A stretch of DNA of 64,000 nucleotides, taken from Isoetes taiwanensis (taxonomy: Eukaryota > Streptophyta > Lycopodiopsida > Isoetales > Isoetaceae). Below, piece by piece: positions 26,974 to 50,585 of the stretch. The DNA lies in contig JAJEKV010000053.1 of the NCBI GenBank assembly GCA_021234155.1, positions 1,251,307-1,315,306 on the forward strand. Reading direction: 5' to 3'. The position numbers and the translations under genes were made by a program. A model generated the notes under the pieces. That model did no database searches. It was not told the origin of the DNA and saw only the letters and a list, made by a program, of their open reading frames with translations. Position 1 is the stretch's first letter; each line of letters begins with the position of its first letter.

Positions 26974-26974
26974 G

Positions 26975-30760: not shown

Positions 30761-30767
30761 AAGAATT

Positions 30768-31308: not shown

Positions 31309-31316
31309 AGGGGGAA

Positions 31317-31946
31317 TGTTGTAGTTGTCATGTAATAATTGTGAGTGATATTCTATTCTAATCTATGAGAAGCAAAGGGCGTGGATTAGAGCAAAGGGCA
31401 TGTTAAATGGTGTCATGTTATACAAAGCTTTGGAAAGACCTATGAGAAGCAGTGGCGTTAGTAGGTCAAAGTCAAAGTCAAAGGTGGCGGGTCAAAGTCA
31501 AAGTGGCGGGCACCCCCTACCCGGGTGTTGCTGGGCTCGCTAGAAACACACAGACACCCCCCCGCCCACCACTTAGGGTTTTGCGTTGACCGGTCAAAGT
31601 CAAAGTCAACTAGGGCCGAATTTTAAGGAAGGCAAGTCTATCTACTCCTGATTTTTAGGCAAGTTGGAGAACTTTCTATATGAAGGGGATGCACAATTTG
31701 ACAAGTGGATGCACCCGGATTGGAAGGTAAATATGGAGATAAATACTGGAGGAATGGATAGACAGGGGGGCTGACAGGTCGAGAGCTGAGCGCAGGAGTT
31801 GTATTTTTTTTAAAAGGTTTATGGATGAGTGACCATATTTTGGCTCCATGAACCTAAGCTTTTATAAGCCTTGTTTATAAAGTTGTCTAGCAAATTTGGT
31901 GAATAAAGCTATTGTTATACTGACTATTTCTGGAACAATTTCTACA
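31317..31946 (+). repeat. 3' LTR of the Ty1/copia element
   Basis: Partner of 26349-26973, ending TTCTACA before TTGAT. Confidence 0.92.
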
Positions 31947-31951
31947 TTGAT

Positions 31952-32455
31952 ATGGCATTACAATGCGTCCTCGTCTTCAATGGCTTCCTAGAAAGTGCAG
32001 CTACAACTACGTTGAGCTTGCCTGGCTTATAAATTATCTCAAAGTCATATTCTTCGAGGAATTCCATCCACCTCCTTTGCCTCAAATTGAGGAGCGGTTG
32101 TGTAAAAATATATTGGAGGCTTTTGATGATCCGTATCTAGCTGGAACCTTCTTCCCAACAGATAGTGCCTCCAAATTCTTAAAGCTCTTACTATAGCCAG
32201 AAGCTCCTGATCATGCGTCGGGTAGCGCTGCTCTGCTTCATTCATCTTCTTCGAGTCATACGCCACTTCCCTTTCCTCCTGCAGAGGACTGCACCTGTTG
32301 CTATCCTACTAGCGTCTGTCGCCACAAGCTTATCTTTGGCTGGATCTGGCAACACTAGGACTGCGTTGTTGTCAAAGCTTCTTTCAAGGTCTCAAACGCT
32401 GTATGGGCCTTCTTTTGCCAATGACCTGCCCAATCCTTTATCTTTCCTGCCTGCT
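31952..32455 (-). pseudogene. RNase H of the outer chromovirus
   Basis: From about 32450 on the minus strand: KAHTAFETLKEALTT, then LPDPAKDKLVATDASRIATG, VAYDSKKMNEAEQRYPTHDQ and ELLAIVRALRIWRHYLLGRR, ending [20 protein letters not shown] and ALSRKPL. The block is that of Ty3/gypsy RNase H. One or two frameshifts are present. Immediately upstream the protease domain begins, so the reverse transcriptase has been deleted. Confidence 0.8.
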
Positions 32456-32491
32456 GTGTGTCGTATTGCTCTACTAGCCAAGACAACTGGC

Positions 32492-33605
32492 CTAGGCTTG
32501 GACTTCAAAGGTTTCAGCTTCATGTACCATCCTTGGAGAAGCAAAGTTGTGGGTGCTCCCTGTATCTATCAAGACTATGAAAGATTTTGCTTTGGCTTTC
32601 CCAGTTGTTGAAATAACTTGATGCTGACTCTCAGCGTTCTCAGTGTCAATGGCGGCAAAAATATGGCACTCACCCTGGATGTAGTCTGGTGCATCGTCCT
32701 CGTCAGCATCCGTTGGTGTCTCCCATCCCATCTCCGCTAATGCCGCGTTCATCACCAAGGGGCAGTTGTTTGTCCTATGCCCTGGCTGGAAACACCTAAA
32801 GCACAACTGCTTTTCTATACACTCCTGCTTCTTCTCTTTGGAAATGGATTGCAAAAACTGTTTCACTGCCTTGGAATAGTTGGAACCCCCTCCTTGCTCT
32901 TTGAAGGTCACCTGTTTCTTATCCTGCTTGCCAAAGTTTGCATTGCCCTGCTTCCCATAATTAGCATTGTATTGAGGCCTGCTAGCTGCTGGGCTTGCCG
33001 GTCTTGGGCTATAGCCTCCTGTGCCCTTTCCCTTATCCTGGTAATAATGCTGCCTTGGTGGATGTTCTTGGGGTCCGGTTCCCTACAGGCTGACTACTTT
33101 GGATTCTGCTTCTGAGACCGTCCTAGGGTTGATTGCTCTTACTAGCTTCCGGATCTCCTCGTTCAACCCCTCTATGTAACCCTCTACTGCGTGCCTTTCA
33201 CTCAACTTCAGCACATAAAGCCTTAGTCTCATGAATTCTTCCGTGTACTTTTGAACTGATTTGTTGCCTTGCTGCAACCTGTAAAACTGCTGCATCATGT
33301 GACACTTATGTTCTCTTGGCACATAATGACGCTTGAATGCCTTAGCAAAATTCTTGAACTTGCAACTATCCCTGCTTAGTACATGTGCTTTGGAGTAGCC
33401 TTTCCACCAAATCCCAGTGGCTCCCTTCAAGTTGGCTGTAGCTACTCTGCCTTTGTCCTTGTCCTTCATGCCATAGGCATTTCTATACTCCCTCATCTCG
33501 TCCAACCATGCTTCTGCTTCCATTCCCAACCTATTATCCCCTGAAAATTGCTCCAGCTTTCTTGCCTTCCATACATTACTGAGCGTTGAGTCAACCTTCT
33601 TCTGA
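32492..33605 (-). pseudogene. gag and protease of the outer chromovirus
   Basis: The capsid-like part (33605 to about 33083) includes ARKLEQFSGDNRLGMEAEAW, TGIWWKGYSKAHVL, FAKAFKRHYVP and LQQGNKSVQKYTEEFMRLR. A Gln/Gly-rich linker leads to the zinc knuckle CFRCFQPGHRTNNC (about 32762-32803) and the protease active site VLIDTGSTHNFAS (about 32540). The frame is mostly open, with a shift near 33080. Upstream it continues in frame into 44116-44590 once the DNA transposon and one TAGT copy are removed. Confidence 0.85.
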
Positions 33606-33609
33606 TAGT
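33606..33609. repeat. Target-site duplication TAGT, left copy
   Basis: Matches 44112-44115. Deleting the transposon with one copy joins gag codons without a frame change (…RTQSD then YQKKVDS…). Confidence 0.85.
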
Positions 33610-33628
33610 AAGCATGAATTCATTAATT
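33610..33628 (+). repeat. Left terminal inverted repeat of the transposon
   Basis: AAGCATGAATTCATTAATT, pairing with 44093-44111 with one mismatch. Confidence 0.85.
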
Positions 33629-33833
33629 AGAGAAATTTGGAATTCTCGTTTAGCATGAAATAGGTTAGCGGGTAGCCATATAGTGCAAAAACTACTACCA
33701 ATTGAGTAAAAGTTGGCATTTTTTTGCACAAATTCTGCAAAGGCTTCGGTCTTATTCGGAAATATAGTTTTTACTGCTAATGCAAAGGTTCACCGCGAGT
33801 ATAACGTAGTAGGAGGGAGTGTTAAAACTTCTC

Positions 33834-34003
33834 GCAAGAAGCGCGAACGCGATGTTTCGCAGCTGAAAGGAGACAAAATAATGTGCCTTTTATTAAAACC
33901 ATATGAGAGCATTGTGTTAAAAGAAGGTACCGAGGAGCAAGGATATCACACAAAATTCAGTATTTAAAGCCATATAATTGCTACAGAGGATCGCGGTCGC
34001 GAT
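33834..34003. repeat. GC-palindrome repeats near the left transposon end
   Basis: GATCGCGGTCGCGAT at 33989-34003 and a decayed relative around 33841-33852 belong to the family described at 37829-39674. Confidence 0.6.
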
Positions 34004-34782
34004 TATTTTTAGCATTAAACATATGGTAAAAGATATGGGTAAAGACAAAACCAAAGTTCCCGAAACAAAAATTTCCATTGAAGGAAGTAATATACAACAT
34101 AGTGTTTCAGATACTTGATCAGGTATCACACCCATTTCATTGGCCATGCGATTGACATGCTCTCTACCCAATTCCATAGCTTGTGTTGTGTCCATCTCTG
34201 AATAACCTGTGATGTCTGGAACTACAACACCCATGGCCTTTGCGATGTGCTGCAGATGTGAATCAGGCTCCCATTCTTCACTGTCCATTGCACTGCTCCC
34301 GCCTATAAGTTCGTTTTTACAAGAGCTCCGATCTTGCAAAGCAGATTCTTGGTCAATCATTGTGGATGAGAGAGCTTCGCTTCTTGCTGTACCTGATGCT
34401 CCACAGTGACCCAAGAACCTCATCTTGGTCAATCTCCATGTCTTTGGTTTCTAGTGCCTTCCATGTGTTCTTTCACGCCCGTATTCAAACTGATGTTCAA
34501 TGTTTTTCAAAGAAAGGCATGTACCCATCAAGCTTCTCATTAAGTGCACTCAATTTTTGAAAAGTGGGCTCTAGGGCTTCTATACCTTTTTCCGTCTCTT
34601 CAAGCAAGCGCTTTGTTTCTTGCATTCTCTCTTCGTAGGACTTAGCATCGAGGTTTTCCAAAATGGAATCCAACTTTGATAGATCTGTGTTTTGGGTGAT
34701 ACTGATGTCGGGTTGAGCTGGATCAGGCTCAACCCTCTCTGCTTTCGGCTCTTCCTCAAACCCATCGGCACTTGGATTGGCC
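33917..34782 (-). CDS. Unidentified gene part, minus strand of the transposon (3' region)
   Basis: Frame 34782 to 34497 encodes MANPSADGFEEEPKAERVEP, then an acidic helical segment SYEERMQETKRLLEETEKGI with coiled-coil character. Frame 34432 to 33917 encodes an acidic Ser/Met-rich stretch (AMDSEEWEPDSHLQHIAKAM) and a hydrophobic end. I recognise no domain. The two frames could be exons of one gene or separate small genes. The coding strand and position suggest they belong to the minus-strand unit starting near 38300. Confidence 0.35.
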
Positions 34783-34810
34783 ATTTTATCAAGCGTTTCA
34801 AAGAACGCCC

Positions 34811-36086
34811 TCAGGAAACGGCACACTTTACCCGAACTTTTCGAAGCCACGCTCTTTTGCCTTGCATAAGAGCAACACGAAAGCCGTCCCAGCCGAAAAA
34901 GAAATCCGAACACAACCATCGGTCGGCACCAAATTGTTCAACAATATGGTAGGCATAGGAGGTTTTCAGCTGGCATTTCAATACAAGATCTCCTTCCATT
35001 GCCGCCCATTTGAATCTTGGTTTGCCTGTAAAAAGAGTCTGATATTTCTTTTTTATCTTCTCGTCGGCATCCTCATTACCTGTTAGCGGCATTGGAGGCA
35101 ATGGTGTTGACTTAGGAGCCTTGCCGGGTGTGGAGATAGGTGAAGCTCAACTCTGGTTGCCCAGGTGTTACCACGAACATCACTCCTGTTAATGCACATA
35201 TGACTAATAAAGTACTGATGTTCTTTCACCCTTCGTTTGCTCTCCCATCCCATTTCTTCATAGGAACCTAAAGATAGGTAGCCACCGCCCTGAATTTGCT
35301 TCTGACTGTACAAGCAATTTGGCAAATTCACTGAGCGCATGATAATAACCAAGTGATAAACTTTGGCAATCGTCATGGTAGCTATCCTTGTAAATAGATC
35401 TGTGTATTTCTTGCAATCCCATACCTTGTTCATCCCTCGGATGTCAATAAATATCAATGTCGCATTCTCTGACACTTGGGAGGAAGTAGGGATGCCATCC
35501 TTTGTCACTGCTATGACAATATTTTTCTTTTCCTTTCTTTTTCTAGCCTCTTCTGGCTTTAGAATATTCCTGATTGGCTCCAGAAAGGCTACAGGTAGGT
35601 TACCTAGTGTATGATCCTTGTTATAATTAGCCTTCACGTACTCTGTATGGGTGTCGATATATCCAATATTCTCTGTTCACCAAATCGGGAAAAGCACCCA
35701 AGCAATTCCTCCCAGCTATCGAAATCCTTTTGCAGTAAATTTGTGGCATAAGAAAAAATTTCTCGCCTCATAAAAGTGAGGGTTCTGATGTCAGTTGCCC
35801 GTTGTTTGCAATCAAATCTCCCGCTATAACCTGACTGCACCTTTAAATACGTCTTGCCTTCTATAATCTCATCGAGCAGCTGTGACACCTCTGCATTCGA
35901 CATACCTCGTAGCAACCGGAGCCAGGTCTTGTTAAAGAAGTCTTTGGATGGCTTGTCCGGAAACTCACCATGGTCGTCACTGAGTTTACGACTCACCCAC
36001 AGACCGGCAACTTCCATTAACTTCTTGAAAACCTTTTCATCCATAAAAATGAATTGTTTTTCATCCTTAAGCTCCTGCACTTTCAA
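34811..36086 (-). CDS. Unidentified minus-strand gene of the transposon, central part
   Basis: Long overlapping frames 36086-35634 and 35637-35083 join with a one-base shift. They continue in 35101-34811 (PPMPLTGNEDADEKIKKKYQ ... RFKWAAMEGDLVLKC). Features are a Lys-rich segment (PEEARKRKEKKNIVIAVTKD), the block ATLIFIDIRGMNKVWDCKKY, and KQIQGGGYLSLGSYEEMGWE. The composition is that of a real globular protein and codon quality is steady. I know no family for it. A Rossmann-like or methyltransferase-like fold is only a guess from the hydrophobic strand followed by D-I-R-G. Confidence 0.5.
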
Positions 36087-36669
36087 GGTGGTCGTTGCAA
36101 TTTCATGGAAATCCTGCGAATTTCAAGGTCATCAAGATCGTGACGCGAACTTGGCGAGTAAAAACAAATAAATACCTTCCAAGCTGAAGTTTTAGCTGTC
36201 CCTATAGGTCCTTGTGGAGGGCAACCATAAGCCTTGTCTGTGATGGCGATGACGGTTTTCTGCGATTTTCAATCGGTGGCTCTGACACCGGTGTTTGCAA
36301 TTACCGTTGCATTGAATACTCAACTCTATATATTCCTTTGTCTAAGATTTCCGTTGAGCACCCTCGATCGTCTTCTAGCATATACTTTGGCAAATTCTAG
36401 ATTTCTTTGCTTTCGAACTTCGTAAACAATAGAACAAAGGAGTTGTGCAACAAGCGCAAATACTTGGTTTGCCGAAATAATATAAAATTTCTTGCCCTTC
36501 AAATCTTACGGATTGCTCCATGTCACCCTCTTCACGAAAGATAGACAACCGTCGGTCAAATCTACATAACGAGTGTCCAAAAGATAAAGAATTAGTTACA
36601 CGGTAATAGGGTCAAATGGAACGGCGTCGGCCCGGGGTGAGGACCTCTGTCGGGTATGTCTTGAAGCTT

Positions 36670-37770
36670 TTAACGGAGTTTGAACATGGTCATTTGACCG
36701 CGTTCGTGTGTCAAGTTTGCTGGTGCAGGTTCACAATCAAAAATAGAAATCTTTGTAAACCAATTAACCCCTAAGGGGTAGAACCTTTTGAACTGTTCAA
36801 GCTTCTGAGTGGTTTGCTCTGCCATCTTGCGTTCCTCTTCGGGATTGAACTTCAACTCGACTGGAATGGCAGGTGCGTGGTGCCATGGCAATGCTAGTCT
36901 AGAGGAAGCATCCGTAACTGGGGGGGGTTTGTGAACTGCTGGGCTGCGGGCTATCTTCAGTAGGTGTCAGATTCCTGAGGCTAATTCTGAAAGAAGGGAA
37001 CTTTTTTGGAATAGATCCACTGGTCAGATGTAGTGCTATCTGGGGCCTTCATAGCAATAGGAAGAGTAGGGTTAACAATACCGGGAGGGGTTTATAAGTG
37101 GATTGTGGTTCTTGAGCAATTTCTTTTGGTGCTGATGTCTCTCCCAAAGCAACAATAGGCTTCACACTCTTTTTCTTGGCCCGCGGCTCTTAGCCAATTA
37201 GTGTCCATCACGGAGGGCATCTTCTCGTCCGAATCGCTTTCAAGGCACGGCTTCGGAGGCTTCTTGTCCAGAGACAAACCATTTCTCGCATCTTAGAACC
37301 GAGCAATATGTCTCTGTTTCCCTTTATACGACAAAAGAGAGATTCATAGGATGGCAACAACCAGCCATAACCCTTAGGCGACGTGGGGACGTTTTTCCAC
37401 AATGGGTCGGGCTTGTTCATTTTTTGGGGTCGTCATCATAGGCGGGTCATAATTGCGCCATTTCAAAATGTACTCCAGAAACTGCAATGCTTGTGTGTCC
37501 TCAATGCTGCATATGATAGCATCTTGCACATTGTTCTTCGTGCCTTCCCACATTGCCACCACTATGCCAACTTGTTCAACGTCCTCAGCTTTTTTTCCAG
37601 TCCGCAGAAAGAAAAGCGGCCGCAGGTCCTTTCTGCGGTCACCCTTAATGTCTTGGTATAGCACATTGCAATCTCAATACACCATTTCCTTTCATTGGAA
37701 GGGGTTATATCTGACCGCTTCGACATCTGGTCCTCGGAAGAGAGCAAGTGCTGTAAACAAAAGCCTGTGG
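36670..37770 (-). CDS. Unidentified minus-strand gene of the transposon, upstream exons
   Basis: Coding-like stretches are KRSDITPSNERKWCIEIA and then DRRKDLRPLFFLRTGKKAED (about 37740-37560), QALQFLEYILKWRNYDPPMM (near 37470), LSLDKKPPKPCLESDSDEKM (near 37260) and ELKFNPEEERKMAEQTTQKL with WFTKISIFDCEPAP (36860-36690). Frame changes between them may be introns or indels. No domain is recognised. The likely first exon is at 38305-38262 (MAPKDSLKE before a GT). Confidence 0.4.
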
Positions 37771-38014
37771 TGAGTGCCTGGTAGGCTGCATAATGTGGTG
37801 CAAGGAAAAGGTAGAAACTACTGTAGAGAAACGCGACCGCGATCCTGCCGAGCAGCTAAAATAGAACTCCACACTATCAGCGGCGCGACGTTTGTAGTAG
37901 CACTTAAGCCGCGACAAAGAAAACATCGCGGTCGCTGAACCTAATGACGTATACTACACTAGTACTCATGAAACATATAAAGAAAGAAAATCTATACTCG
38001 GCCCGGACGTGGCG

Positions 38015-38166
38015 CGATCTTGTTGAGCAGCTACACTTATGAAGACCGCTGTCTAGAAATTACAAAACCTATCAAGCAAGACCGCGGCCGCGATCTTGTT
38101 GAGCAGCTACACTTATGAAGAACGCTGTCTAGAAATTACAAAACCTATCAAGCAAGACCGCGGCCG
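38015..38166. repeat. Two tandem copies of a 76 bp repeat
   Basis: Units start cgatcttgttgagcagctac at 38015 and 38091 and a third begins at 38167 but diverges. Each unit contains one GC palindrome, so palindrome number has grown by tandem duplication. Confidence 0.75.
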
Positions 38167-38261
38167 CGATCTTTGCCGAAAGCAATATACTTATGAAAAC
38201 AATAGAAGCTCGAGTAGGCAACATCGCGGCCGCGATCTTGCTGAGCTGAAATGTTAGAAAA

Positions 38262-38305
38262 TACCTTCTTTGAGGGAGTCCTTAGGTGCCATGGGATCGC
38301 GGGCG
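38262..38305 (-). CDS. Possible first exon of the minus-strand gene
   Basis: MAPKDSLKEG is followed by GTATTTTC, a possible 5' splice site. GC palindromes then lie in the presumed intron. Confidence 0.3.
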
Positions 38306-39244
38306 CTGGCTGAGTTCGAAATACGAGTCTTTTTGGAGTGGCTCGAGAAGGCGCTCGGAGGGCGAAGGCGCTAGGCGCTGAACGAAATCGCGGAGTCGAA
38401 ATTTGTTTTTAAAGGTTTGAAGTTTCAATTTATAGAACGCGGCCGCGGAAATTAATTGCCCGCCCCTCATAATTGCGCGTGAAAAAACGTGCCGGCCATA
38501 ATGGCGTCGTACGCCGGCAGTAATAATTACCGGCCGGCCGGCCGTATTTATTCCCTGACATAAATGCGGTCGTGCGAATATACCCGTCCGAAAAGGCAAG
38601 TAATCCGTAGGAAAGGTCCTTATCCACTTGGACGTCCGCGTTCAAATTCGGGGCGTAATTTCGGACCTGACACATTATGCAGCCATAAATGCCCCAAAAA
38701 AATCCGGTTTACGGACGGACAGTGACTGTAGAATTTGAAATCGAGAACAAACCAATTCGAGAAAGCGGGAAAAGCCAATTCAAATTTCATTGTTTTGCAA
38801 GATCTTCGAGGCGCTGGAGCTGCGCCTAAGCTGGGCCAAGTTCGGGCAAGGATTTGCTGCAGAATTCCGCATCCATTGAAGGCGCTGACGAGGGCGCTGA
38901 TAATCCGCTTGCAATCCGCCACTACACATTCAGAATTCTGCAACTGCATCGAATTCAGGGTTTCGGGCGAGGTAAAAGGCCTATTCTGATGCATATCCCT
39001 CACTGAAGTGAACTCAACGTCTATGTTGCACTGAATTTTAATTATAACTACAACCCTATGTATTGCATGGATTGATAAGATACCTCCTGATACTTTGTTG
39101 CAACTATGTAAAAATAGATGTTCTAAGCAAAACTGTGCACTCTGGTGTGTTTATTATACAATGTAAATGTGTTTCAGGTATATGCTTTCTTTCTCCATGT
39201 GGATGAAACTAAACACTGTTTTTATGACACTGCAGCTTCTGACG

Positions 39245-39322
39245 GGTACAAGTTGATGTTGACGCCACCGGCTACAAGTTGACGTTGACGCCACCGGCTA
39301 CAAGTTGACGTTGATGCCACCG
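39245..39322 (+). repeat. Three tandem copies of a 26 bp repeat
   Basis: Unit gctacaagttgacgttgacg plus ccaccg, three copies with three substitutions, in the non-coding space upstream of the plus-strand gene. Confidence 0.75.
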
Positions 39323-39698
39323 TATTCTGTGAGGTATGAGTAATGCTTTATTCTGTAAGTCAGTCGTATAACTTTGGTGCTCCACGAGATCGCGGTCGCG
39401 ATACCTTCAACCGTCTACACTTGCTATTGACCAATGAACTCCCAGCTATCGACAACTTTGAGTTGAAACCACTAGCTAGCCTCGAAATGTGATTTGCACG
39501 AGTTCTTATCGAAACAGCTAGTGTGAATGCTTGCAAAAAGCGCGACCGCGTTCTTACCCATGCTCGATAAGATCGCGGTGGCGATAGTCCCGAGCATTTT
39601 TTATTTTTCAGTTCCTATTTTTTGTAGTGGTTTGTGATCACAGTGCTTTCTGCTTACGAGGATCGCGGCCGCGCTATTCACGACCTCTTGTTTGCAGG

Positions 39699-40976
39699 AT
39701 GGCTGATGTAATTCCGCTTTATCTGCTGGGGAAAAAAGTGGCAGAAGGAAGAGTCCACAATTTCGAGCGCCATCACAATTCGACTGTCCCGGAGGGTATG
39801 GTTGTCGTTTCAATTGTGAATGTTCTGGATGGACAGTTACCGCTACCAATTCCCGAAATGGAAATAGAAAAAATGGGTGAAGCTGTGGGGACTTTTGTGT
39901 TGTGGTACAAGAAGGACATTGCTGCTCAACTTGATAGAGATGAGGAAGCATGCACCCCACGGTCGGATAAAGCATAGGCCGGCGGGGACGGAGGGGAATG
40001 AGGGGTTAGCCCGATGTGGGGAGCCGAATCATGTGCAAGGGCTTTCTAGAGATGAGTTAGTTGAGAAGGCGTGCACACTCATGCATGAATCTTTGCTACA
40101 TGGCTTATGCCTATGGTGTTATCGTTTTTGCCGATCAAACCATCTTTGTGTCGGCGTGAAGTTAGGGGAAGGCTCGATAGCTGCTACTATCATGAACATT
40201 TTTCCAATGCACGAAAAAAAGATCTCTATCTTGTTGCCGGGCACGTGCGAGAAATGCCCCAACCGCATGACCTTGTGAGATGGCCCATAGCCCTCGTGCT
40301 CGTTGATAACATTCCGGTTTCTACTCTTGTGGTTGCGGTGAAGGAGAAGGATGTGGAGAATGAACCTTACTCCATTAGACCCGAAATTGGCATCACCAAA
40401 AAGAGACCTTCTGAAGATGGTCAATCGGAGACCCGAACACGCCCGACCACGAGTAAATGTGAAAGAAAAACTAGTCTTGAGGCTATTCTAGACTTCGGTC
40501 ATCAACATCTTTGCATGAAACGATCTTTGTGCAAATTTTACATCCCGGAGATAGCTTGCATGAGAACCTTTTCTTTGGAACATGAAGTCCTCGGGCGCGC
40601 ACAACTTTTGCATATAACATGCTAGATCTTTGCTCACGAAAATGGTGTAGTCCATAAACCGATGTTGAATAACAAACGGTGTCGCGTGAAAGCATGGCAT
40701 AAAGCCTATGGCATTCCCATTTCCACTTTTACAAGTGGAAGAAGCTCTTCAATGATGGCCCGCGAATTGCCGAGCACGGAAATCTTGGGTCTAAAGCCAA
40801 GGTCTCATACTTTGGTCGGCAATCTTGTGCTATCTATGTTCATAGATGAAAACGCAGAGACGATGCCACACCTCGAAAATTACGGCGAGGGTAGCGGACA
40901 AAATGTTAAGAGGCTACCTTACATCTTGACTAAGAAGGATATACACCAAGAAGTAGATATTTCCGTTCTGAGATGA
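39699..40976 (+). pseudogene. DUF8039-like N-terminal part of the transposon plus-strand gene
   Basis: The frame at 39699-39977 reads MADVIPLYLLGKKVAEGRVH, then VPEGMVVVSIVNVLDGQLPL and EAVGTFVLWYKKDIAA. This matches the pattern of the plant transposon-associated DUF8039 domain (VAEGR...; V.V..V; IG.AVG..V.W). The frame is lost after a stop at 39975-39977. Further coding-like pieces at 40107-40625 (ARKKDLYLVAGHVREMPQPH, RWPIALVLVDNIPVSTLVVA) and 40662-40976 show no known domain. It precedes the transposase on the same strand and is probably the N-terminal part of the same product. Confidence 0.55.
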
Positions 40977-41373
40977 CGAGGCAAGCATATTTCTCCTTAG
41001 TCATTTTAAATGCGCTTGGAAAGAGAATCATTCAGAGGTATCAATAGCTAAGAGGATAGCATTTTCCAAGTGTAACACACATATTGTCATAAAGGAAAAG
41101 CTTGCTAAGACCCGGAGATCCAAACGAAAGAAGGGTACTTGCAATAGAGAGGAAATCGCATATGATGGCCCCTGATTTCTTGCGGGGAGCCTTTATTGGT
41201 CTGGAGAGCTTTGTCGCATAGATCTCCCGAGCATGCTTTAACCATTATACATGATAAGATGGATCAGAATAAGACCATGGTCCCTCGCCTAGAGAAGCTA
41301 GCAAAGTCTCAGATGGAGGGGTGAGCGATTGAAGGTCGGTGTTACAAGTGCTCTCATGCACGCCATGGTATAG

Positions 41374-42045
41374 GTGCCTTGGGCCACTTCTCACTTTGAC
41401 CTCTGGCCTGATGATTCTAATTTTCATGTGGGATCCTTGAATCATACCTTGAAGACACTGGAGAATAAATCTGAGGATAATTGGGGCCATTTGAGAGATA
41501 CTGATCGTCCTGAAAGCAGCTGGGGTGCAGCAATTTTAAACACAGATAACCTCAGGACAAAAATGATGAATGGCAGTAGAAATGATTTTATGCCTCCTAT
41601 CAAAGGCCCCATGGTAGCAAACAAGTTGCCTAGGAGGCTTTACTTGCAGCTAGATAATTGCTTTCGGTCGAATAAGAATAGATATCTTTTCTCTTACTTG
41701 TCATACTTGGTTTGGTTAGGTGTATTTGATCAAGTGCAGCTGGGATTCATGATGGTTGGACACACCCACGATGACATAGATGCCCTATTTGGAAACTACT
41801 CTACTCTAATGAGAAGATCAGATGCATTGACTATTCCGGAGCTTATGCAACTCTTCAGGCAGTGTAGTTCAAAGGCTCCTTCGCCTTACCTTGTGACAGA
41901 GGTTCCTGATTGGAAGGAATTCGTGAAAGGTTTTATCCCTGATAAGAAGGACCGTTTATGTGGTCACTTGGAACCTCTACTCTTCAAGTTTTGCATGAAG
42001 GATGGATGGCCACTAATGTTCTACAAGATGAGGCCAGGGGCATAG
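41374..42045 (+). pseudogene. DUF7869-like putative DDE transposase core
   Basis: The 223-codon frame carries LPRRLYLQLDNCFRSNKNRY (about residues 85-104) and FDQVQLGFMMVGHTHDDIDA followed by LFGNYSTLMRR (about residues 117-147). The pair LQ(L/F)DN...NKN and VGHTHDDIDALF is the hallmark of DUF7869, an RNase H-fold family of eukaryotic transposon proteins. The Asp of QLDN and the acidic residues after GHTH are the likely catalytic ones. It would cut and join the transposon ends. The usual upstream catalytic Asp lies outside this frame. Confidence 0.7.
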
Positions 42046-42248
42046 GGAGTGGCTCCAAAAAGGGAATCGAATGTGGAAGGAGGATGCCCAAGGTTTACCT
42101 ATGATTCCGAGAGGGTCACCTAAGGTCCTGCACCATATGGGAGCTTGAAAGATATAGGTGCATTAAGAGCTTCTATTGCCAAGTACATGATGCCTTTGGG
42201 CAGCTATTTCTAGAGCTGGCGATAAGTCATGGTCCAACACATATATGA

Positions 42249-42826
42249 ATGAAGTTATTGACTCTTGGGTCCACCTTGTTGCGAGTGCTTGGTGACGTGC
42301 AGCCCGGTGAGAGCTCATTCAGATTTCTGGCCCAAAGACCGGGCAAAGTGCATTGGAAGAACCCGAAAGAGTGTTTGTGGATGAGCACATTGAAGCATCT
42401 CATTACGTTGGGCCTTTCTCGGGTAGACCCAAGAACCCAGTTGAAATATTCGACCCCTACCAAGATGTCAAGAAGGGAATGCTCTTGCTAATCAGACCAC
42501 ATGATAACTGCCCGACATGGATGGGTTTTGCCGAAGAGGACCCAATAGAGGACCCTAATCTCCCACATTACGAAGAGGTGTTTGTCTCTTGGTTTGAACC
42601 TATTGCCAGAAAGGGAACCTCATATGCAATGCAGTATAGGGATTGCTGGAGCAAGAATTGGAGACCCAAACCTAATGACCCGCCACGCTACCAACCTTTG
42701 AAAACAATAGACTATGGTTGGGCCGTAGAGACCAGGCCATTGTCAGTGGTGATCCCCAGTAGTGTTCGGGCTCAGTTGCAAGAATTAGTGGCTAAAGAAG
42801 CTAAGGACGATGATGAGAACTCTTGA
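42249..42826 (+). CDS. C-terminal part of the transposon plus-strand gene
   Basis: The frame 42353-42826 encodes MEEPERVFVDEHIEASHYVG, then FDPYQDVKKGMLLLIRPHDN, WMGFAEEDP, and an aromatic DCWSKNWRPKPNDPPRYQPL block. It ends in an acidic tail. It follows the transposase core on the same strand and resembles the short chromatin-reader-like tails seen after such transposases, although I cannot name a domain. A frameshift near 42350 separates it from the core. Confidence 0.45.
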
Positions 42827-42965
42827 GGTATGCAATGCTCTTTTACATAATTACTATATCATTCATAACATGAAAGTTACAATAGACTAGTTATTATTTG
42901 TTACGCTCTGCGTTTTCCATCTCAACACAAGAGCTCTTACACTATACAATGCTAAACAGGTGATT

Positions 42966-43207
42966 CATTCATCTTCAGGATCTGTAGTAGTGATCCCTGA
43001 TATCTCATAGCTCATTCGCTCAGGAAGCCAAATCAGATGGATCATTACACGAATTGACGCAGGGCAACGAATCTCAGCGCCCAAAGCTTTTCTTCGCAGG
43101 TAGGGATCAAGAAGAAGATGCCTGTCTAGGCAACCAACAAGATCAGAGTGGCTCATTGAGCACTTGATCGCCTCGATGTGGTGAATTGATGAAGGCAAAT
43201 AATCCAT
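42966..43207 (-). CDS. Small acidic-ended protein, copy 1 of a duplicated gene
   Basis: An intact 80-codon frame: MDYLPSSIHHIEAIKCSMSH start, LDRHLLLDPYLRRKALGAEI middle, and an acidic end TTTDPEDE. The TATA-like ctcactataaaagc lies about 30 bases upstream on the same strand (43233-43246). Family is unknown. Its upstream region (to about 43400) and coding part are duplicated at 43595-44010. It is transcribed towards the transposase gene and lies inside the transposon's right arm. Confidence 0.5.
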
Positions 43208-43594
43208 GGGAGAGGAATGAACTTTAGCCCCGAAGTGAGAAGCTTTTATAGTGAGGTAGAATTATTGAGGTGAATTATTGGGGTAGACTTGAGGCCCATT
43301 ATTGCTCGTGTATAAGACCGTTGTATAAATACAAGTATAATACATCTTTCGTATGGATATATGTATGCGTACTAATATGCGTATGTTTCAAAACATGTTT
43401 GCTTGACGAATTTAGCTATGATTGAATTCAATGACAGCTTGCAGAATAAGTGGAGGTGGGATAGCACATCGTTACAATATACTCAGTTAAGGTGCATTGA
43501 TATTACATCCTTAATCGAGAATGCTATTACATCCTTACTTAGTTATTAGGTACCCATGTCATTATTACATTATTAGCGGTGCGGATTCACTCGT

Positions 43595-43832
43595 CATCAA
43601 CATCAAAGCTCGTGATGCCATTCACTCATAGATCTCCGATCGGGAAGCCGATAAATATGGACTTTAACGCTGAGTGAGCTTCACCTGCAAGCACTAGCGG
43701 GTCCATCAGCTTTAGATAAGAGCCATGGATCAAGCTTAACGCTATTTCTAAGCGCGTTCGCCCGGATCGTTGTAGCTCAAGTAACACTTGAAAGAGCGGA
43801 TGTGCTCGGGGCGAGGCATCGAGGAAGCCATG
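43595..43832 (-). pseudogene. Copy 2 of the duplicated small gene (frameshifted)
   Basis: The start MASSMPRPEHIRSFKCYLS aligns to copy 1 (IHHIEAIKCSMSH). After a frameshift the LIHGSYLK and GITSFDVDDE end aligns to LLLDPYLR and GITTTDPEDE. Its TATA box (ttcactataaaaac) is kept at about 43866-43880. The promoter stretch with ttattgatgtgaattattgg is also shared, so the duplication covers promoter and gene. Confidence 0.5.
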
Positions 43833-44092
43833 GAAGATGAATGGCCTCTACCCCCTCGTGAAGCCGTTTTTATAGTGAAGTAAAATTATTGATGTGAATT
43901 ATTGGCGTACAATGTAGGGCCATTATTGAGCTTATACGAGTGTCATGTACACGTACAAGTATAACACAAAATTTGTATGTATATGTGTATGTTAATTACC
44001 TCATGTTTGTTGGGGTCGAGTACTAGGTGAAAGTATTCGTGCTTGAGCAAATAAGGTGTGCTCAAAATTCTCAAAATTGCGTTATTTTATCC

Positions 44093-44111
44093 AATTAATG
44101 AAATCATGCTT
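44093..44111 (-). repeat. Right terminal inverted repeat of the transposon
   Basis: Minus strand AAGCATGATTTCATTAATT, followed on the plus strand by the TAGT duplication. Confidence 0.85.
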
Positions 44112-44115
44112 TAGT
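44112..44115. repeat. Target-site duplication TAGT, right copy
   Basis: Partner of 33606-33609. Confidence 0.85.
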
Positions 44116-44590
44116 CAGATTGTGTCCTGCCCCTATCATGGTTTGGACCCTCTCGGTAGTCTTGCCTCTCTTCCTCCTGCTCTTCCGATCCGGAATCAGA
44201 GTCTGAACTAGAGTCGGAGGACCCTGAGCTAGGTGATCTCCTTCTCCAGCTTCTCTTCCTTGGCTGAACTGTTCGGCCGGCTGGGGTTTCTGGCAGTTGC
44301 ACATTCTGGTCCTGTCCTCCTATTGCTGCTACTGCCATCAATGCTCTTATCTCATGAATGTCTGTCTTGATCTGGGATAGCTCCTTTTCTGGTGTTGGTG
44401 CATCAAACTCTTGGTACAAGTTTCTTGGTCGGAATTGCCTTGGTGGAGTGCGCTCTTGGTCACGTTGTCCTTGTTCCTCAACATTTCTAGGTGCTCTAGT
44501 TGCATCCACATTAGATTGAACTCTGATGATTAGTTCCTTGTTTGGGTTGTTGCACAGGTTTGTTAAATGATGCAATTGTGGGGGCAAAAT
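44116..44590 (-). pseudogene. Arg/Ser-rich N-terminal gag extension of the outer chromovirus
   Basis: The minus frame contains PPRQFRPRNLYQEFDAPTPE, a helical block IKTDIHEIRALM, then RKRSWRRRSPSSGSSDSSSD followed by an acidic GSEEQEEERQDYREG. It ends at the transposon insertion and continues in the same frame into gag at 33605. Arg/Ser-Asp-rich segments are unusual at this place in chromovirus gag. They suggest RNA or chromatin contact, which is inference. Confidence 0.7.
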
Positions 44591-44647
44591 TATATGTCAA
44601 GAAAACATAATTAAGATCATCTTTTATATTCATGGATATAATACTAT

Positions 44648-46209
44648 TTATACATTCAAGATATTAATCATGAAAATTGAAAACATTTTTAATTTTATTC
44701 TTGAAATTTCTTCAAGTAATCTGGGTTGTCCTCCAAAAATTTCTTCACTTCGGCCGTGCCGATTGTTCGCCCTAGGTTCCTGAGGATATTTGTGGCCATG
44801 CCTCCTTGAAGTGCGGTCACCAAGTCTTCGATCTGATGTATAGGCTGCAGTAGCTGCCAATCTGCCCTGCCGTCTATAGGGGACCGCAAAGTCGAAGATA
44901 CTCAATGCTATTGTTCTCTTGACAAGGATGACATGATCAATGTTTGGGGCCATACGAGCATGACTTCTGAATCCTGAGAGAGCAATGAGCATAAAGACTC
45001 CTTCTTCACCCCGTGGGCTGAATTGATGGTGTATAACCGCTATCCTTCCATCAATGAGCAAGGGGAGGTAGAACCTAAGGGCTTTGTCATGCCTTGCCTC
45101 TTCGCCGGTTCTAATTGCTACTCTGTGTCTTCCGGAGTACTCATCAACCGGTACTTCCACCATCTCTCTGTAATCACGGTACATGGAAGCTGTCAGGTTG
45201 ATGCTGCCTTCCGCTAGTGCTGGTGCCGATGCTGATGTACTAGGTAGGAGTGCGGACGTTGATTTTCCTCTGATTCCCATGCGCTCCTGAATTGCTAAGA
45301 ACTCCTCTTCCGAAGGCAACTCCTGTTCAGCCATCATCTGTCTGATGCCGGTGTAGGCTTCAATATCCGTTGATGTTTGGCCGGTGTATGTCCGGGCTTC
45401 CCTTATGCTGATAGGAAAGTCCTGTGTTTCGCAGTCGATGAAGTCATCGAGATCCGGATGTTCCCGTAGGAGATGCAGAAGTTCGTCTACTCTATAGCCC
45501 CTGTCTCGGCACTCTGGGAGGTTCTTGATGTCGTGGAGGGTTAATTATGCCTCCCCTTGGATAATCACTGGGTCCAAGCTTGTGATTCCTTGCCCAAGTG
45601 GTGGGGTTGTTCTTGTGGCTCTCAGCCCTTCTTCGAAGCGCTGGAGTTGTTGCTCTGCTTGCTGCCTTTCTTGTACCAGGTCTATGTCGGCGATGTCTTC
45701 CGCGTCCGACTCGCATCCTTCCTCTTCTTCTTCCTCTGCCTCCTCATATGCAAGGCGCATCTGTTCTTCTTCAGCTGCTGCCATGGCCATTGGCTCGACG
45801 TCTAGGGGTTGCACAGATGGTTCTCCTATCTGGGTTTGGGCTCGAAGAGATAGGAAGATAGCTACGGCTGCTGTGTAAGAAAAATATCTCCTCCTATTGA
45901 CAGCTATGGACATATAGTTAGGCAAGTGGCTAGCCTTGTTTTCTAGGTACTTGTCTATATTGGGGATGTCTTGCAGAGCTGTCTTGAGGGCCATGCTTGG
46001 AGCAAAGTATCCTATGCAAGGTGGGAGCTCTCTAGAGAAGGTCCTATCTTGGCATGGAAATCAAACATGATATCTTGGTAGAAGGGGATGGCATTGATGG
46101 TAGCTTCCACATCAACCTCCTTCTGGAAGACGGCAAAGACGGAGTTGATGTCGGCCTCGGCCACATGAGCTGGGGCGCTGTACCATCGCCTAAATTTAGT
46201 GGTTGCCAT
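44648..46209 (-). pseudogene. ORF2 of the outer chromovirus, unidentified
   Basis: A likely start at 46209 gives MATTKFRRWYSAPAHVAEAD, then INAIPFYQDIMFDFHAKIGP. After a shift near 46015 come ALKTALQDIPNIDKYLENKA and RRRYFSYTAAVAIFLSLRAQ, and an acidic run (EEAEEEEEEGCESDAEDIAD). The frame is lost at a stop near 45545. It resumes to 44648 with EYSGRHRVAIRTGEEARHDK, ALRFYLPLLIDGRIAVIHHQ, SHARMAPNIDHVILVKRTIA, and, shifted, DLVTALQGGMATNILRNLGR. About 500 codons in total. I know no homologous family. Confidence 0.55.
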
Positions 46210-46499
46210 GATGCTTGAGCAGCTGGGGATATCAAACAGATGGGGAAGCGCCTTAGGGGCCTGGAAAATCGGCTTGGAGTGAGGAGCAAAGGTGTAGGAT
46301 GCAAATGAGGGTTGTGGTCTATTTATAGACAAAACCCTAATTTTGGAAAATTTCAAAGTTGGGGAATCCCTATAATTCTAAGATATTGCTATGCAATTCA
46401 CAGGCTAATTATGTTGAAGAGTGCATTCTAAGGATCCTATTGCAACAAATTCCATCTAATTTGGGGAAAGTTAGGACAAATTAGGACAAATATGGTGTG

Positions 46500-46572
46500 A
46501 CCACTCACACAGTGCGCGAGGAGCAAATCCGAGAATGGCGAATTTGGTCTGGGCGCACTCTGTGAGGGGTGG
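46500..46572 (-). repeat. Long hairpin of the outer chromovirus, copy 1
   Basis: Outer arms ccactcacacagtgcgc and gcgcactctgtgaggggtgg pair with few mismatches. Inner arms aaatccg and cgaatttgg also pair. Same family at 46703-46776, 46899-46949 (one arm lost), 49622-49694 and 49799-49873. Confidence 0.75.
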
Positions 46573-46702
46573 GACCTTGTTTGGGTCGAGGATGATGCCA
46601 AACATGCAAACTAAGGGTAGAATCCTGCTCATCTCGTCGATATAGGTCGGATTGTGCCCTTACTTTCTTCATTTGGACAACTTTTGGCATAGATTAGGGT
46701 CG

Positions 46703-46776
46703 ACCACTCACACAGTGCGCGAGGAGCAAATCCGAGAATAGCGGATTTGGTCTAGGCGCACTCTGTGAGGGGTGGG
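46703..46776 (-). repeat. Long hairpin, copy 2
   Basis: Same arms as copy 1, about 200 bp from it, between ORF2 and the H3-like gene. Confidence 0.75.
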
Positions 46777-46898
46777 GCTCCATTTGGGTTGGCCAATTTC
46801 TACAATCTAAGGGTCAAATCCTACTAAACACAATGAGCTGAGTCGGATGGTGCCCTTATTTTCTACATTTGGATAATTATTGGCTAAGATCGGTGCTT

Positions 46899-46949
46899 GA
46901 CCACTCCGAGAATGGCGGATTTGGTCTGGGCGCACTCTGTGAGGGTTGG
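46899..46949 (-). repeat. Long hairpin, copy 3, one arm partly deleted
   Basis: Keeps gagaatggcggatttggtct and the gcgcactctgtgag arm, but the opposite arm is cut to ccactc. Confidence 0.65.
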
Positions 46950-47088
46950 GGCCAAAAACACTGAGTTTTGTTCCAATTTTGTTGATTCCAAATGCAGAAC
47001 TTAGTAATACACCCTAATTAAACATGATTTAACACATTAATTTGACAAAACCATAAATTTATATTTACAAAAATCATTTACAACAGAC

Positions 47089-48120
47089 TCAATAGTCTTC
47101 TTTCTTAATGTACTTGGCTAGCCTCATGTCCTTGGGCATGCATGTTACCCTGTTTGCGTGGAGTGCGCATGCTACCAAATCTTCAAAGTGATGAACAATC
47201 CTCTGCTCGGCTGCCTCCTGTAGCGCGAGTAACATGTCATCAGTCACGCGCTTGCTCTTGTCAAATTCCTGCAAAATCTCGCGAGTGAGTCTCGCGAAGG
47301 GGGCTCTCGGTATCAAAAGTCCATAGCTCCTCTGGAAATGCCTGATCTCCCGAGCAGCTCTGGCAAAATATGAGTCGGCCTTTCTCCTGATCGGCTTCCT
47401 CGGAGGTGCTGGTTTCTCAGGGGGCGGCTTCAGTGTGTTCTTCTTGGTTGGTCTGCCTCCTTCGACATAGGTGACCTTGTGCTCCTCATAGTACTTCGAG
47501 TATTCCTCGTACATTTTCATGTACTGGGTATACTCTTTGAGTTTCTTCCTATATTCAAGCTTGTTCTTGAGTACATAGGACTCTCGCGCAGGCCTCGGCT
47601 TCTTCTTGTCTGCTGCAGGGTGCTTCGGGGACGGCCACCTTGGGTACGGGGGTACCTCTGCTACCGGCTCCTCCTCTTCATTCCTTGCATTCGAGGGTCC
47701 TGAGCCCTCAGTGGGAACAGGGACCCTCATCTCCTCATCTGACTCAGTGTCAGATGAGGATGGCGGCTTATCGGGCTATTGCTCCCAAATGACGACGCTT
47801 TTGGCCGGCGTCGTCTTCAACTTACGCCCGGTGTCTTTAGGCAACTCGGGGGCTTTCCCCTTGTCTACCTTCTTCTGCAAGCGCTCCTCCCTGCGCTTCC
47901 TACTTCTGCCTCCTCTCCTCTTTCTGTTTCCGGCGCTCCTCCTTCTCTCGCCGACGCTCCTCCTTGGTTTTCTTGACCTGTGTTACTTCGTCCTCCCTTT
48001 TTCTCTTCCGCTCTTTCTTGTCTAATTTCTTGAGCTCCCTCTCTATCTCCCCCCTTAGTTCTTCTGCAGCTCCTTCATCTTTGTGGCCCGGCTCGCTCTG
48101 GCTGCCGGGGCCCTTCTATG
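47089..48120 (-). pseudogene. Histone H3-like protein of the outer chromovirus: charged linker and histone fold
   Basis: The last 213 codons (47730 to 47089) are open. Residues 120-213 form an H3 histone fold: REIRHFQRSYGLLIPRAPF (alpha-N), RLTREILQEFDKSKRVTDD, MLLALQEAAEQRIVHHFEDL (alpha-2), CALHANRVTCMPKDMRLAKY (alpha-3). The H3 signatures LQEA, FED, C-A-x-H-A, RVT and MPKD-x-x-LA are all kept and loop 1 has canonical length, so it is closer to H3 than to a long-loop CENH3. Before it lies a Lys/Glu-rich, coiled-coil-like linker (to 48120), with one shift near 47910 and a stop near 47780. The N-terminal tail is the inverted piece at 50092-50279. Confidence 0.82.
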
Positions 48121-49407
48121 CCTTCCTTGCCTCGCATTTAGGGTTCTCTTGAGCCATTCCGGCCAAGCTAAGAACCAATTTCGCATTGCCAGGCTCTGAA
48201 AAGTCGCCTTTGCACAACAGATCGTCGAGTAGCAGCAGCCTTCAACAAGATCAGAAGCATGGATGCATTCCGAGGATCTGGAGCAGGTCGAGTACCAGGT
48301 AATCAGTCATTCTGTTGTGCAAAGCCGCCTTTGGGCTAGACAATAAGGTAGTTTAGCATATTCATTCAGCCGTAGAGACCTTGTAGATTCCAAGATCATG
48401 AGCCCTAACAAAGGAACCTAACCTTGGATGTTTAGGTAGGTAGATTAGATGATATTATTCATTTCAATTCTGTGATGATGTCGGTATTTCACTCTGTGAC
48501 CTCCATGTATTGGGAAGGGGGGTAGAGGCCTAAAGCCTGTGTAGCAGATGATTCTAGGTAGCCTACTAGTTCCCAGTTACATGCGGCCTGTGCACAATGA
48601 GCCCGTCTGGCTGTGGGTGGAGGGGCCAAGCCGATGAAAAAGGGGGACTTGTCCCATCACAGAAGAGTTCCTCTGGTGTGTAAAGCCTACCAGGGACCTT
48701 AGTGAGCTAGGCTTAATGGCTTGCCACTGCGTGTGGGCAAGGCATGAGCTCGACACCTTTGGGGCGATGCATCGCCTTCCATGAGGTTAAGTCGAATAAG
48801 GGCAGTGGCCCTCTAGCCACCTGTGATGGGCATGCATGCCCCTGGGGAAGAGGTGACTCTCCTCCTGCCTCATCGAGGCTGGGGAGATGCAATCCAGTAG
48901 TAGCCCTCTTGGCTATGTACCCGGCAGGCTACGGCCCGGTCCCAATACTTTTCAGCCTACTCTGCAAAGTGTGCACAGGAGGGGCAGATGGAGTGGACTA
49001 CCCTCAGCTATATTCCTATGCCAGCCAAATCTAGTTGCCATGAATTCTGTCTGCAATGACCTCTGGAAGCCCATGCCGTCAGTCAACCCCCTTGAGTCTG
49101 AGCTCTGGGTAGGATCTCCCTTGTTGCTATTGTTCATGTTGATGTGTTGTATATGTGATGATCATGATGTGTTCACCCTTCGAGGTGATCGTATTGATAT
49201 AGTATATTATCTGCTCATGTTTATTCACGCTTCCGCAGCTAGGTTGACCCGAAGGGAGACGGGTGAATGACACATCCACTCTTCCCTTGCTGGCTCATTC
49301 CACTGGGAGTGGTGTCAGGTGGATGGCCCCTGCTAGTTTGGCTGTCAGGGGGAATGCTCCGTCTTCTGATATGATGTGTGCATCATATAAGGAGTAGGGA
49401 CGTCACA
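48121..49407 (+). repeat. R/U5 part of the 5' LTR of the outer chromovirus, inverted
   Basis: Collinear with the complement of 9004-10275. It now reads on the plus strand because 48121-50279 is inverted. It ends GACGTCACA followed by the primer site. It contains a short open stretch ATGGATGCATTCCGAGGATC ending at a GTAATC, a possible leader exon border, conserved in both LTRs. Confidence 0.8.
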
Positions 49408-49408
49408 G

Positions 49409-49420
49409 TGGTATCAGAGC
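49409..49420 (+). promoter_or_regulatory. tRNA-Met primer-binding site of the outer chromovirus (in the inverted segment)
   Basis: TGGTATCAGAGC one base after the LTR end GACGTCACA. Confidence 0.9.
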
Positions 49421-49621
49421 ATGATCTTGGTACACCAAGATCGAGCACTGACCATTTTCCTATTAAGACTAACAGTAGACTTCAAGTCTTGGGAATAGCC
49501 ACCCAAGCATGAACCCCGAAAATTGGAAATTTTTTTCCAATTTCTAGTGCAGTAAGTAGGTTAATGCTAAGTTAATCGAAAGTTTTAGCAAGAACTCAAC
49601 CAAATTTGGCCAAAAAGAGGT

Positions 49622-49694
49622 CACCCCTCACAGAGTGCGCCTAGACCAAATCCGCCTTTTTCGGATTTGCTCCCCGTGCACTGTGTGAGTGGTG
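49622..49694 (+). repeat. Long hairpin, copy 4, in the leader
   Basis: Arms cccctcacagagtgcgc and gtgcactgtgtgagtggtgg; inner aaatccg/cggattt. Lies between primer site and the H3-like start codon. Confidence 0.75.
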
Positions 49695-49798
49695 GACCCA
49701 AGTTGACCTAGTTAGATGCATAATTTAGCTAATCTAATGGTGCAGTTCAGCTTCTCCCTTAGATTCTAGCTAGTTTTGCATATTAGATCACTAAGAAG

Positions 49799-49873
49799 TG
49801 ACCCCTCACAGAGTGCGCCCAGGCCAAATCCGACATTCTCGGAATCGCTCCAGGCGCACTGTGTGAGTGGTGG
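49799..49873 (+). repeat. Long hairpin, copy 5, in the leader
   Basis: Same family as copy 4 with substitutions spread over the loop, about 180 bp downstream and 220 bp before the H3-like start. Confidence 0.75.
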
Positions 49874-50091
49874 ATGCTTTCTGGCTACATAAACCTAATG
49901 TACTTATCATATCTACACTAATACCTCCTAGAATGACATAATATGAAATTGCAGGTCCAAACCCTAAAATCCCCCTACCTATAAGTAGACAATTAGGGTT
50001 CCTCATTTACACTTACCTCCTCCAACAAACAGTTCCTCGTCCCAGAAGACGATTTTTAGGCACCAGGAGTCGGATTGCGTTGATACAAAAC

Positions 50092-50279
50092 ATGGCCCGG
50101 ACCAAACAAACCGCCCGCATTGTAGTGCCCGAAGACCATGTGAGCGCCCAGGAGCTAGCAGCCCGACAGAAGGCCAGACAGGCTCAGGAGCGGGCCAGGC
50201 GGAGACAAGATGCAGAGGCCAACCCAGACGCCCAAGAGGAGGCCCAGGAGTGTCAGGAGGAAGAGCAGGCACAGGAAGG
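50092..50279 (+). pseudogene. N-terminal tail of the histone H3-like protein (inverted piece)
   Basis: The ATG at 50092 opens MARTKQTARIVVPEDHVSAQ. After removal of Met, the first eight residues equal the universal H3 tail ARTKQTAR, with Lys4 kept and Ile at the Lys9 position. The following residues are a Gln/Ala/Arg/Glu-rich helix (ELAARQKARQAQERARRRQD) and an acidic end. The start lies about 670 bases after the primer site, where the first gene of an LTR element is expected. The frame is cut at the inversion breakpoint; joining to 48120 needs one base shift. An upstream TTG at 50080 is in frame but the ATG is the sensible start. Confidence 0.8.
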
Positions 50280-50585
50280 AAAACCCTAAATGCAAAGAGA
50301 GAAAAGTTTTAGGGTTTAAGGGGAAGCCCTTATTTAGAAACCCTTAGGGTTAGGTTAGACCTTGGCCAAATGGGGTTTAGCCATTTGGCAATGGGGTCCA
50401 TGGGGTTTATAATTGTGTATGTTTATTTAACATTCACAACATTCGAAGTTGCCCCCCTAGGTGCTACACTTGCCCCCTAGGTGCAACCTTTTACGACCTC
50501 CCAGTACATGTCATTTATGACATGTACGTGTGACGTGGCAGTATAATATACATATTTGGATCATATATTATGCTGGAACGTCACA
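50280..50585 (-). repeat. U3 part of the 5' LTR of the outer chromovirus
   Basis: Minus strand begins TGTGACGT at 50585. Near 50295-50370 it matches the U3/R boundary of the 3' LTR with its CCCTAAACC-rich sequence. The stretch 50371-50585 has no counterpart in the 3' LTR copy. Confidence 0.7.

Follow-up and report, generated by a model that had tools for sequence, protein, structure and literature searches.

Can a retrotransposon encode its own histone H3, and is the protein kept as a histone? The question is raised by a 64,000-nucleotide stretch of the Isoetes taiwanensis genome (contig JAJEKV010000053.1, positions 1,251,307 to 1,315,306; hereafter the window, in whose own numbering coordinates are given). 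A reading made from the sequence alone had placed there a Ty3/gypsy chromovirus whose first gene, directly behind the primer-binding site (PBS) and leader, joins an ARTKQTAR start to a complete H3 fold through a long Lys/Glu-rich linker, in a copy rearranged by an inversion. We find that tail and fold form one gene in related copies. Our suggestion, made with middling confidence, is that H3 coding sequence entered a clade of Ty3/gypsy chromoviruses, which retains the H3-like gene in first place after the PBS.

The H3-like gene of the window

The gene lies in three parts (numbers with an L denote sequences outside the window that were used for comparison):

50092..50289 (+): N-terminal part of the H3-like gene, MARTKQTARIVV..., which enters sequence of the long terminal repeat (LTR) at the breakpoint; resembles the starts of L030-L035 and L037
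47776..48120 (-): Lys/Glu-rich linker, frame-broken here; continuous in L032, L034, L035 and L037
47089..47775 (-): C-terminal part with a complete H3 fold; Pfam Histone E 1.5e-21, Protein Data Bank (PDB) H3 E 4.9e-22

The minus-strand frame 47775-47089 translates into 228 amino acids that match the Pfam Histone profile, and its residues 106-226 align with the H3.3 of a solved structure. The two E values rule out a chance resemblance, and we regard it as confirmed that the frame encodes a genuine H3 fold. In a separate alignment, loop 1 has the length found in H3, without the loop-1 insertion of the CENH3 type. Compared with host H3, the proportion of nonsynonymous differences (pN) in the fold is 0.42 and that of synonymous differences (pS) is saturated. 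The N-terminal part opens with MARTKQTARIVVPEDH... at the ATG at 50092 and is closed by a stop codon that ends at 50289. The alignment with H3 picks up again at about Gly12 (GGRPTKKNTL against GGKAPRKQLA), so that the protein looks like an H3 with a Lys/Glu-rich insertion placed in its tail behind residue 8 or 9. Across the element-encoded proteins described below, the insertion amounts to some 270-300 amino acids, and the tail is not the short one of canonical H3.

The two halves of the gene point in opposite directions because an inversion inside the 5' LTR splits it. The features concerned are as follows:

9004..50585 (-): outer chromovirus element with nested insertions inside; LTR ends TGTGACG/CGTCACA, flanking 5-bp duplication
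9004..10392 (-): 3' LTR, first part absent; 97% to 48121-49408, 93% to 50276-50370
50276..50585 (-): outer part of the 5' LTR, original orientation kept; 50276-50370 matches 10298-10392; LTR start TGTGACGTTCC
48121..50275 (+): inverted segment (rest of the 5' LTR, PBS, leader, H3 N-terminus), orientation opposite to the 3' LTR
49409..49420 (+): PBS, TGGTATCAGAGC, directly after the LTR end

The element is 41.6 kb long and is flanked by the target-site duplication (TSD) CCTCC at 8999-9003 and 50586-50590; its PBS is, we presume, of the initiator-tRNA type. The LTR sequence 9003-10291 matches 49408-48121 in the opposite orientation (97% over 1290 bp) and 10298-10392 matches 50276-50370 in the same orientation, which means that a piece of about 48121-50275 was flipped inside the 5' LTR. 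AGGAAGG stands in inverted orientation at both breakpoints. No match to the missing LTR part was seen by eye upstream of the 3' LTR. Since the frame upstream of the start in the relative L034 resembles the window leader, the inversion looks confined to the window copy. The linker holds at least one frame change and a stop, which leaves the gene frame-broken, and, judging the frames by eye, the reverse transcriptase region is absent between protease and RNase H. The window copy is thus decayed, which corrects the sequence-only reading.

One gene in related copies

We searched the genome to which the window belongs (1,658,258,908 bp in 1110 contigs), scoring the best 150 candidates in each search; the first-look candidates (8705 and 10650) were loose. 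The window H3 frame gave at least 151 matches, and those listed, the window included, are 69-100% identical, a good number of them holding stops. Eight relatives (L030-L037), picked for long frames, were fetched and form subfamily T with the window copy. Tail and fold share a single frame in five of the eight: L032, L034, L035 and L037 run open from MARTKQT into the fold (394-421 amino acids from Met), and L033 does the same from MACTKQT. The start lies in a different frame from the rest in L030 and L031, and there is no MxRTK start within the fetched stretch of L036. The copies with tail and fold in one frame rule out two unrelated gene halves. Subfamily T can be described as the tail start ARTKQTAR(K), a Lys/Glu-rich stretch of about 270 amino acids, and H3 from about Gly12 onwards with a divergent fold. 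Three proposals of the sequence-only reading hold at this point: the histone match of the minus-strand frame, the union of both halves by the linker in one gene, and the inversion, for which the opposite LTR match and the inverted AGGAAGG are the evidence.

A second subfamily and the architecture of the element

In the Pfam Histone search, the top 15 of the 150 scored matches reach 164-165 bits over nearly the full profile, and the eight of these that were fetched (L001-L008) are canonical 136-amino-acid host H3 genes. The remaining 135 score 144-155 bits and lie in frames of up to 494 amino acids. Twenty of these, picked for long frames (L009-L028), represent subfamily N. All 20 have a frame of 401-494 amino acids in which a novel domain of about 300 amino acids, taking the place of most of the tail, comes first, a linker of basic character second and the C-terminal part of H3 last. 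The H3 part is 84-89% identical to host H3, keeps most H3 core residues and is near-canonical. Pfam scans of three of the proteins assigned the large domain to no family; it does not match ORF2, the second accessory gene of the elements, and its best PDB match, at E 0.68, is not convincing.

TGGTATCAGAGC is found 1.6-1.8 kb upstream of the fold in 13 of the 20 N stretches, and gag follows downstream on the same strand in 17. The clearest architecture is that of the element covered by L027 and L029, which has LTRs 96-97% identical, the TSD TTATC, a PBS and no nested insertion. Its order is LTR, PBS, H3 gene, ORF2, gag, protease (PR), reverse transcriptase (RT), RNase H (RH), integrase (INT), chromodomain, polypurine tract and LTR; the order from gag through PR, RT and RH to INT was read by eye, in an element whose pol frame has breaks. 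Pfam recognises gag and PR in L017, and SH3 and chromodomain in L029 (Chromo E 2.7e-8). A tandem or recombinant element is seen in L024, where two LTR-plus-leader units on the minus strand (990-3224 and 6773-9024, 96% identical, 5.8 kb apart) flank one H3 gene and ORF2.

Proteins of both subfamilies match Pfam Histone. Between the window element and the N copies, identity is 74% for the integrase-chromodomain part (with L029) and 57% for gag (with L017), and the LTR ends TGTGACGTTCC and CGTCACA are common to T and N elements; on these similarities, we take the two subfamilies to be one clade. LTRs with a 5-bp TSD and a PBS, a chromodomain at the C-terminus of the integrase and the PR-RT-RH-INT order identify it as Ty3/gypsy chromovirus.

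Abundance and position of the gene

Three patterns were counted throughout the genome, each with a reversed control that gave 0 matches. The LTR-PBS junction CGTCACAGTGGTATCAGAGC has 2366 exact matches, degenerate codons spelling MARTKQT have 2727 (a figure that takes in host genes and decayed copies) and the N fold signature xDANLCAIH (first codon G- or C-centred) 1304; counts of exact patterns are not counts of intact genes. Among the first four extra MARTKQT sites (L043-L046), three are decayed or soon-stopped frames and one opens a different protein.

Distances were measured in contigs C1-C154, for which the listed places comprise 66 junctions, 95 starts and 44 fold signatures. A MARTKQT start lies 650-727 nt downstream on the same strand at 18 of the 66 junctions (one more at 3.5 kb), and the N fold signature lies 1.87-2.2 kb downstream at nine (one more at 3.2 kb). 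No start or N fold was found in other orientations within 5 kb of these junctions. Together with the window PBS and the L027/L029 architecture, these near-fixed distances bear out the claimed position of the gene directly after the PBS and leader.

Origin of the H3 sequence

In the tree, the N clade (100/99) adjoins host H3 (96/84), a grouping that puts N nearer to H3 than to CENH3. The T clade (100/100), to which the window fold with its H3-length loop 1 belongs, sits on a long branch and its place is uncertain. In the approximately unbiased (AU) test, neither a single clade of T and N (p 0.077) nor one of T, N and host (p 0.113) is rejected, and one capture or two are both compatible with these tests. 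Protein searches with the T C-terminal part returned 36 and 6 matches, in which the aligned share of the query never exceeded 54%, and the short-pattern scan found no match in viral contigs. A scan of genome contigs picked up five contigs of metagenome-assembled genomes filed as bacterial (L038-L042), 61-84% identical and mainly over the H3 part; these are probably eukaryotic contamination.

Selection on the fold

The fold is under strong purifying selection. A lack of selection on it would have refuted the sequence-only reading, and multiple copies show the opposite. By pairwise counts in 19 of the 20 N copies (L023 was left out), pN is 0.072 and pS 0.676, and the median ratio of nonsynonymous to synonymous substitution rates (dN/dS) is 0.032, with 101 of 171 pairs lying outside the median because their dS is saturated. 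The T fold (nine rows, window included) has pN 0.089, pS 0.655 and a median dN/dS of 0.064, with 14 of 36 pairs saturated. The N domain has a median dN/dS of 0.16 (100 of 171 pairs saturated), and the linker medians are 0.25 in N and 0.28 and 0.08 in T. Within the same 16 elements, gag has a dN/dS of 0.142 against 0.022 for the fold (73 of 120 fold pairs saturated); L023 was too short for this comparison, three others had no gag in the stretch, and stops in some gag pieces raise the gag value. These ratios supersede an initial conservation test on the single copy (Fisher p 0.0025).

Lysines of the tail and further tail families

Lys4 is present in all 28 copies that have a visible start and were not picked by motif (20 N and 8 T), and the residues around it vary (MARTKQT, MARTKGT, MANTKSA, MPRFKLT, METPKQV). 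Of the eight T copies, two (L035 and L037) keep Lys at position 9, and the other six have Ile there. Lys9 is found as well in L050, another T-like copy, whose linker contains a stop.

MARTKQTARVPG opens a protein in L045:1285-1482 (-), L047:1241-1486 (-) and L048:282-1433 (-), with no Pfam histone match in the pieces scanned. This family apparently carries the H3 tail on a different, non-histone protein. L043 and L049 have MARTKQTARIHPVV followed by a stop, L049 with the remnant MPKDMRLVLRIRD in the same frame, and apparently represent a further, decayed family with an H3 tail.

Other parts of the window element and its inserts

44111..46377 (-): ORF2, broken in the window copy; no Pfam family in the main frames
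33086..33619 (-): gag; Retrotrans_gag E 2.1e-15, 57% to L017 gag
32495..33082 (-): zinc knuckle and protease, both under the Pfam cut-off; zf-CCHC_2 8.7e-4, RVP_2 0.002
21920..22990 (-): integrase C-terminal part, SH3_Tf2-1 (5e-22) and chromodomain (Chromo 7.3e-7); 74% to L029
49622..49871 (+): two stem-loop repeats in the leader; z -6.8 and -4.6
46500..46945 (-): three related repeats 3' of the H3 stop codon; z -7.2 and -4.7, partial 46945-46905 z -0.6

The gag, zinc knuckle/protease and integrase with chromodomain lie on one strand in the expected order. ORF2 has no homologue at E 1e-3 among 8000 candidates scored; its similarity to the N-subfamily ORF2 is colinear and weak, at E 0.0023 with a probability of 12.7. 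The repeats are about 75 nt long and form strong stem-loops at 49622-49699 and 49800-49871 (+) and at 46774-46697 and 46571-46500 (-), with z from -4.6 to -7.2; the partial fifth folds poorly. Stem-loops of this type were not found in the three N leader stretches tried.

A DUF7869 protein (41374-42045, +, E 1.8e-40), which separates ORF2 from gag in the outer element, is probably part of another inserted element. A gypsy-type element (10535-21661; LTRs of about 600 bp, 89%; TSD TGTTA) interrupts the outer element in its 3' part, and one named copia-like by eye (26346-31953; LTRs of about 640 bp, 96%) sits in its pol. At 3-2678 (+) there is an RVT_1 reverse transcriptase (E 9.4e-12), and the adjoining frames look DIRS/Ngaro-like by eye.

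Discussion

The architecture, the abundance and the purifying selection on the fold are shown by the sequences; beyond this, we suggest that the element-encoded H3 acts in chromatin. Most H3 core residues are kept in N, which we take as conservation of a working histone. The protein would pair with host H4, enter nucleosomes on element cDNA or insertions and mark that chromatin. With Lys4 kept and Lys9 often lost, an active state would be favoured and the H3K9-methylated state disfavoured, and the element would gain escape from silencing or help with integration. A retrotransposon clade would in this way build its own chromatin from nucleosomes with an H3 variant and resist H3K9 silencing; with the tail of the L045 family on its apparently non-histone protein, mobile DNA in this genome could be using histone-tail mimicry quite generally. 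We put this full proposal forward tentatively.

Several observations weigh against the explanation preferred here. In the alignment with the H3.3 of the solved structure, the window fold has Pro at Arg63 and Tyr at Arg129 of H3, positions that we take to be weighty ones. Retention of Lys4 may be plain inheritance, the copies compared for the tail lack independence, and the METP and MEEV starts may not be homologous to the H3 tail. The T and N folds may have separate origins, given the AU value of 0.077 for the two together and the long T branch. Decayed copies are present (the window, L030, L031, L036, L043, L044 and L046). As to selection, many pairs in both subfamilies are saturated in dS, as counted above, and picking copies by score or open frame biases dN/dS low; despite this, a pS of 0.67 with a pN of 0.07 would hardly be possible under neutral change.

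The protein might instead be a mimic or sponge, which binds chaperones, H4 or the readers and writers of the tail and blunts silencing without forming stable nucleosomes. Subfamily T keeps the tail start while its fold diverges, and the occurrence of MARTKQTARVPG in L045, L047 and L048 without a histone match suggests that the tail may serve alone. In N, however, constraint is strongest on the fold and the greater part of the tail has been lost, which suits a folded histone better than a tail decoy, and we consider a mimic somewhat unlikely. Improbable in our judgement is a packaging role, with the histone fold condensing cDNA or RNA within the virus-like particle or pre-integration complex. 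The first place after the PBS and the combination of basic linkers with a DNA-binding fold would fit such a role, but a separate gag exists, and H3 is not known to wrap DNA without H4.

A captured host H3 that is merely amplified with the element as a functionless passenger seems very improbable, since pN is 0.07 against a pS of 0.68 in the N folds and 0.09 against 0.66 in the T folds, and the dN/dS of the fold is below that of gag in the same elements. A weaker point is that neutral decay, simulated down to the identity of the window fold with indels outside the model, left the frame stop-free in only 182 of 2000 runs. In favour of a passenger, a number of copies, that of the window included, are decayed, and the capture of genes by LTR elements in plants is well documented (PMC7264820). 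Ordinary host H3 genes or pseudogenes lying by chance beside LTR elements can be dismissed as next to impossible: canonical H3 genes do exist in the host (L001-L008), but the window element has its TSD at both ends, 17 of the 20 N stretches have gag 3' of the fold and on its strand, the distances to the PBS are near-fixed, and the L027/L029 element refutes the idea.

The sequence-only reading knew of no LTR retrotransposon with an H3 gene. Our search of the open-access literature, with subscription papers and preprints outside its scope, likewise found none with a histone gene, and to that extent the novelty stands; an H3 borne by a transposable element had already been published. The passages of PMC3538342 on Pyrenophora tritici-repentis describe a hAT DNA transposon that carries an H3-like gene (H3L), with 26 copies and expressed sequence tags. 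The likeness lies in a mobile element with an H3-like gene. According to the same passages (PMC3538342), that element is a DNA transposon with terminal inverted repeats in a fungus and has few near-identical copies, whereas here a chromovirus clade shows thousands of exact-pattern matches, long tail insertions and measured purifying selection. No hAT domain was present in the open reading frames (ORFs) scanned by Pfam, and the window element is bounded by LTRs and has gag-pol.

Ty3/gypsy elements of Phalaenopsis, as portrayed in the relevant sections of PMC9289625, are similar in being large gypsy elements that have gained a host-like gene, one suspected of counteracting control by the host; they differ in that the gene encodes another enzyme, an AlkB RNA demethylase. 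In the same paper, 15 added domains passed the filter across 121 angiosperm genomes, and the section that reports them describes no histone domain. Chromoviruses, including the Tcn1-like clade of non-seed plants as outlined in part of PMC2864245, have gag, PR, RT, RH, INT, chromodomain, LTRs and TSD in common with the elements described here, which have in addition two accessory genes that follow the leader and precede gag; H3 is encoded by the first. Plant LTR elements with extra ORFs in the internal region, a feature shared with the elements described here, are treated in the review PMC7264820, and the word histone is absent from its main text.

An H3 that is encoded by an element, selected and abundant would provide a direct test case for the manipulation of chromatin by mobile DNA. 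To our knowledge, no chromodomain retroelement has been found to supply a histone. Such elements do read histone marks, as set out in part of PMC2864245. The copies described here also amount to a natural series of H3 variants whose tails contain inserted domains, and histone gene counts in such genomes may be heavily inflated by elements.

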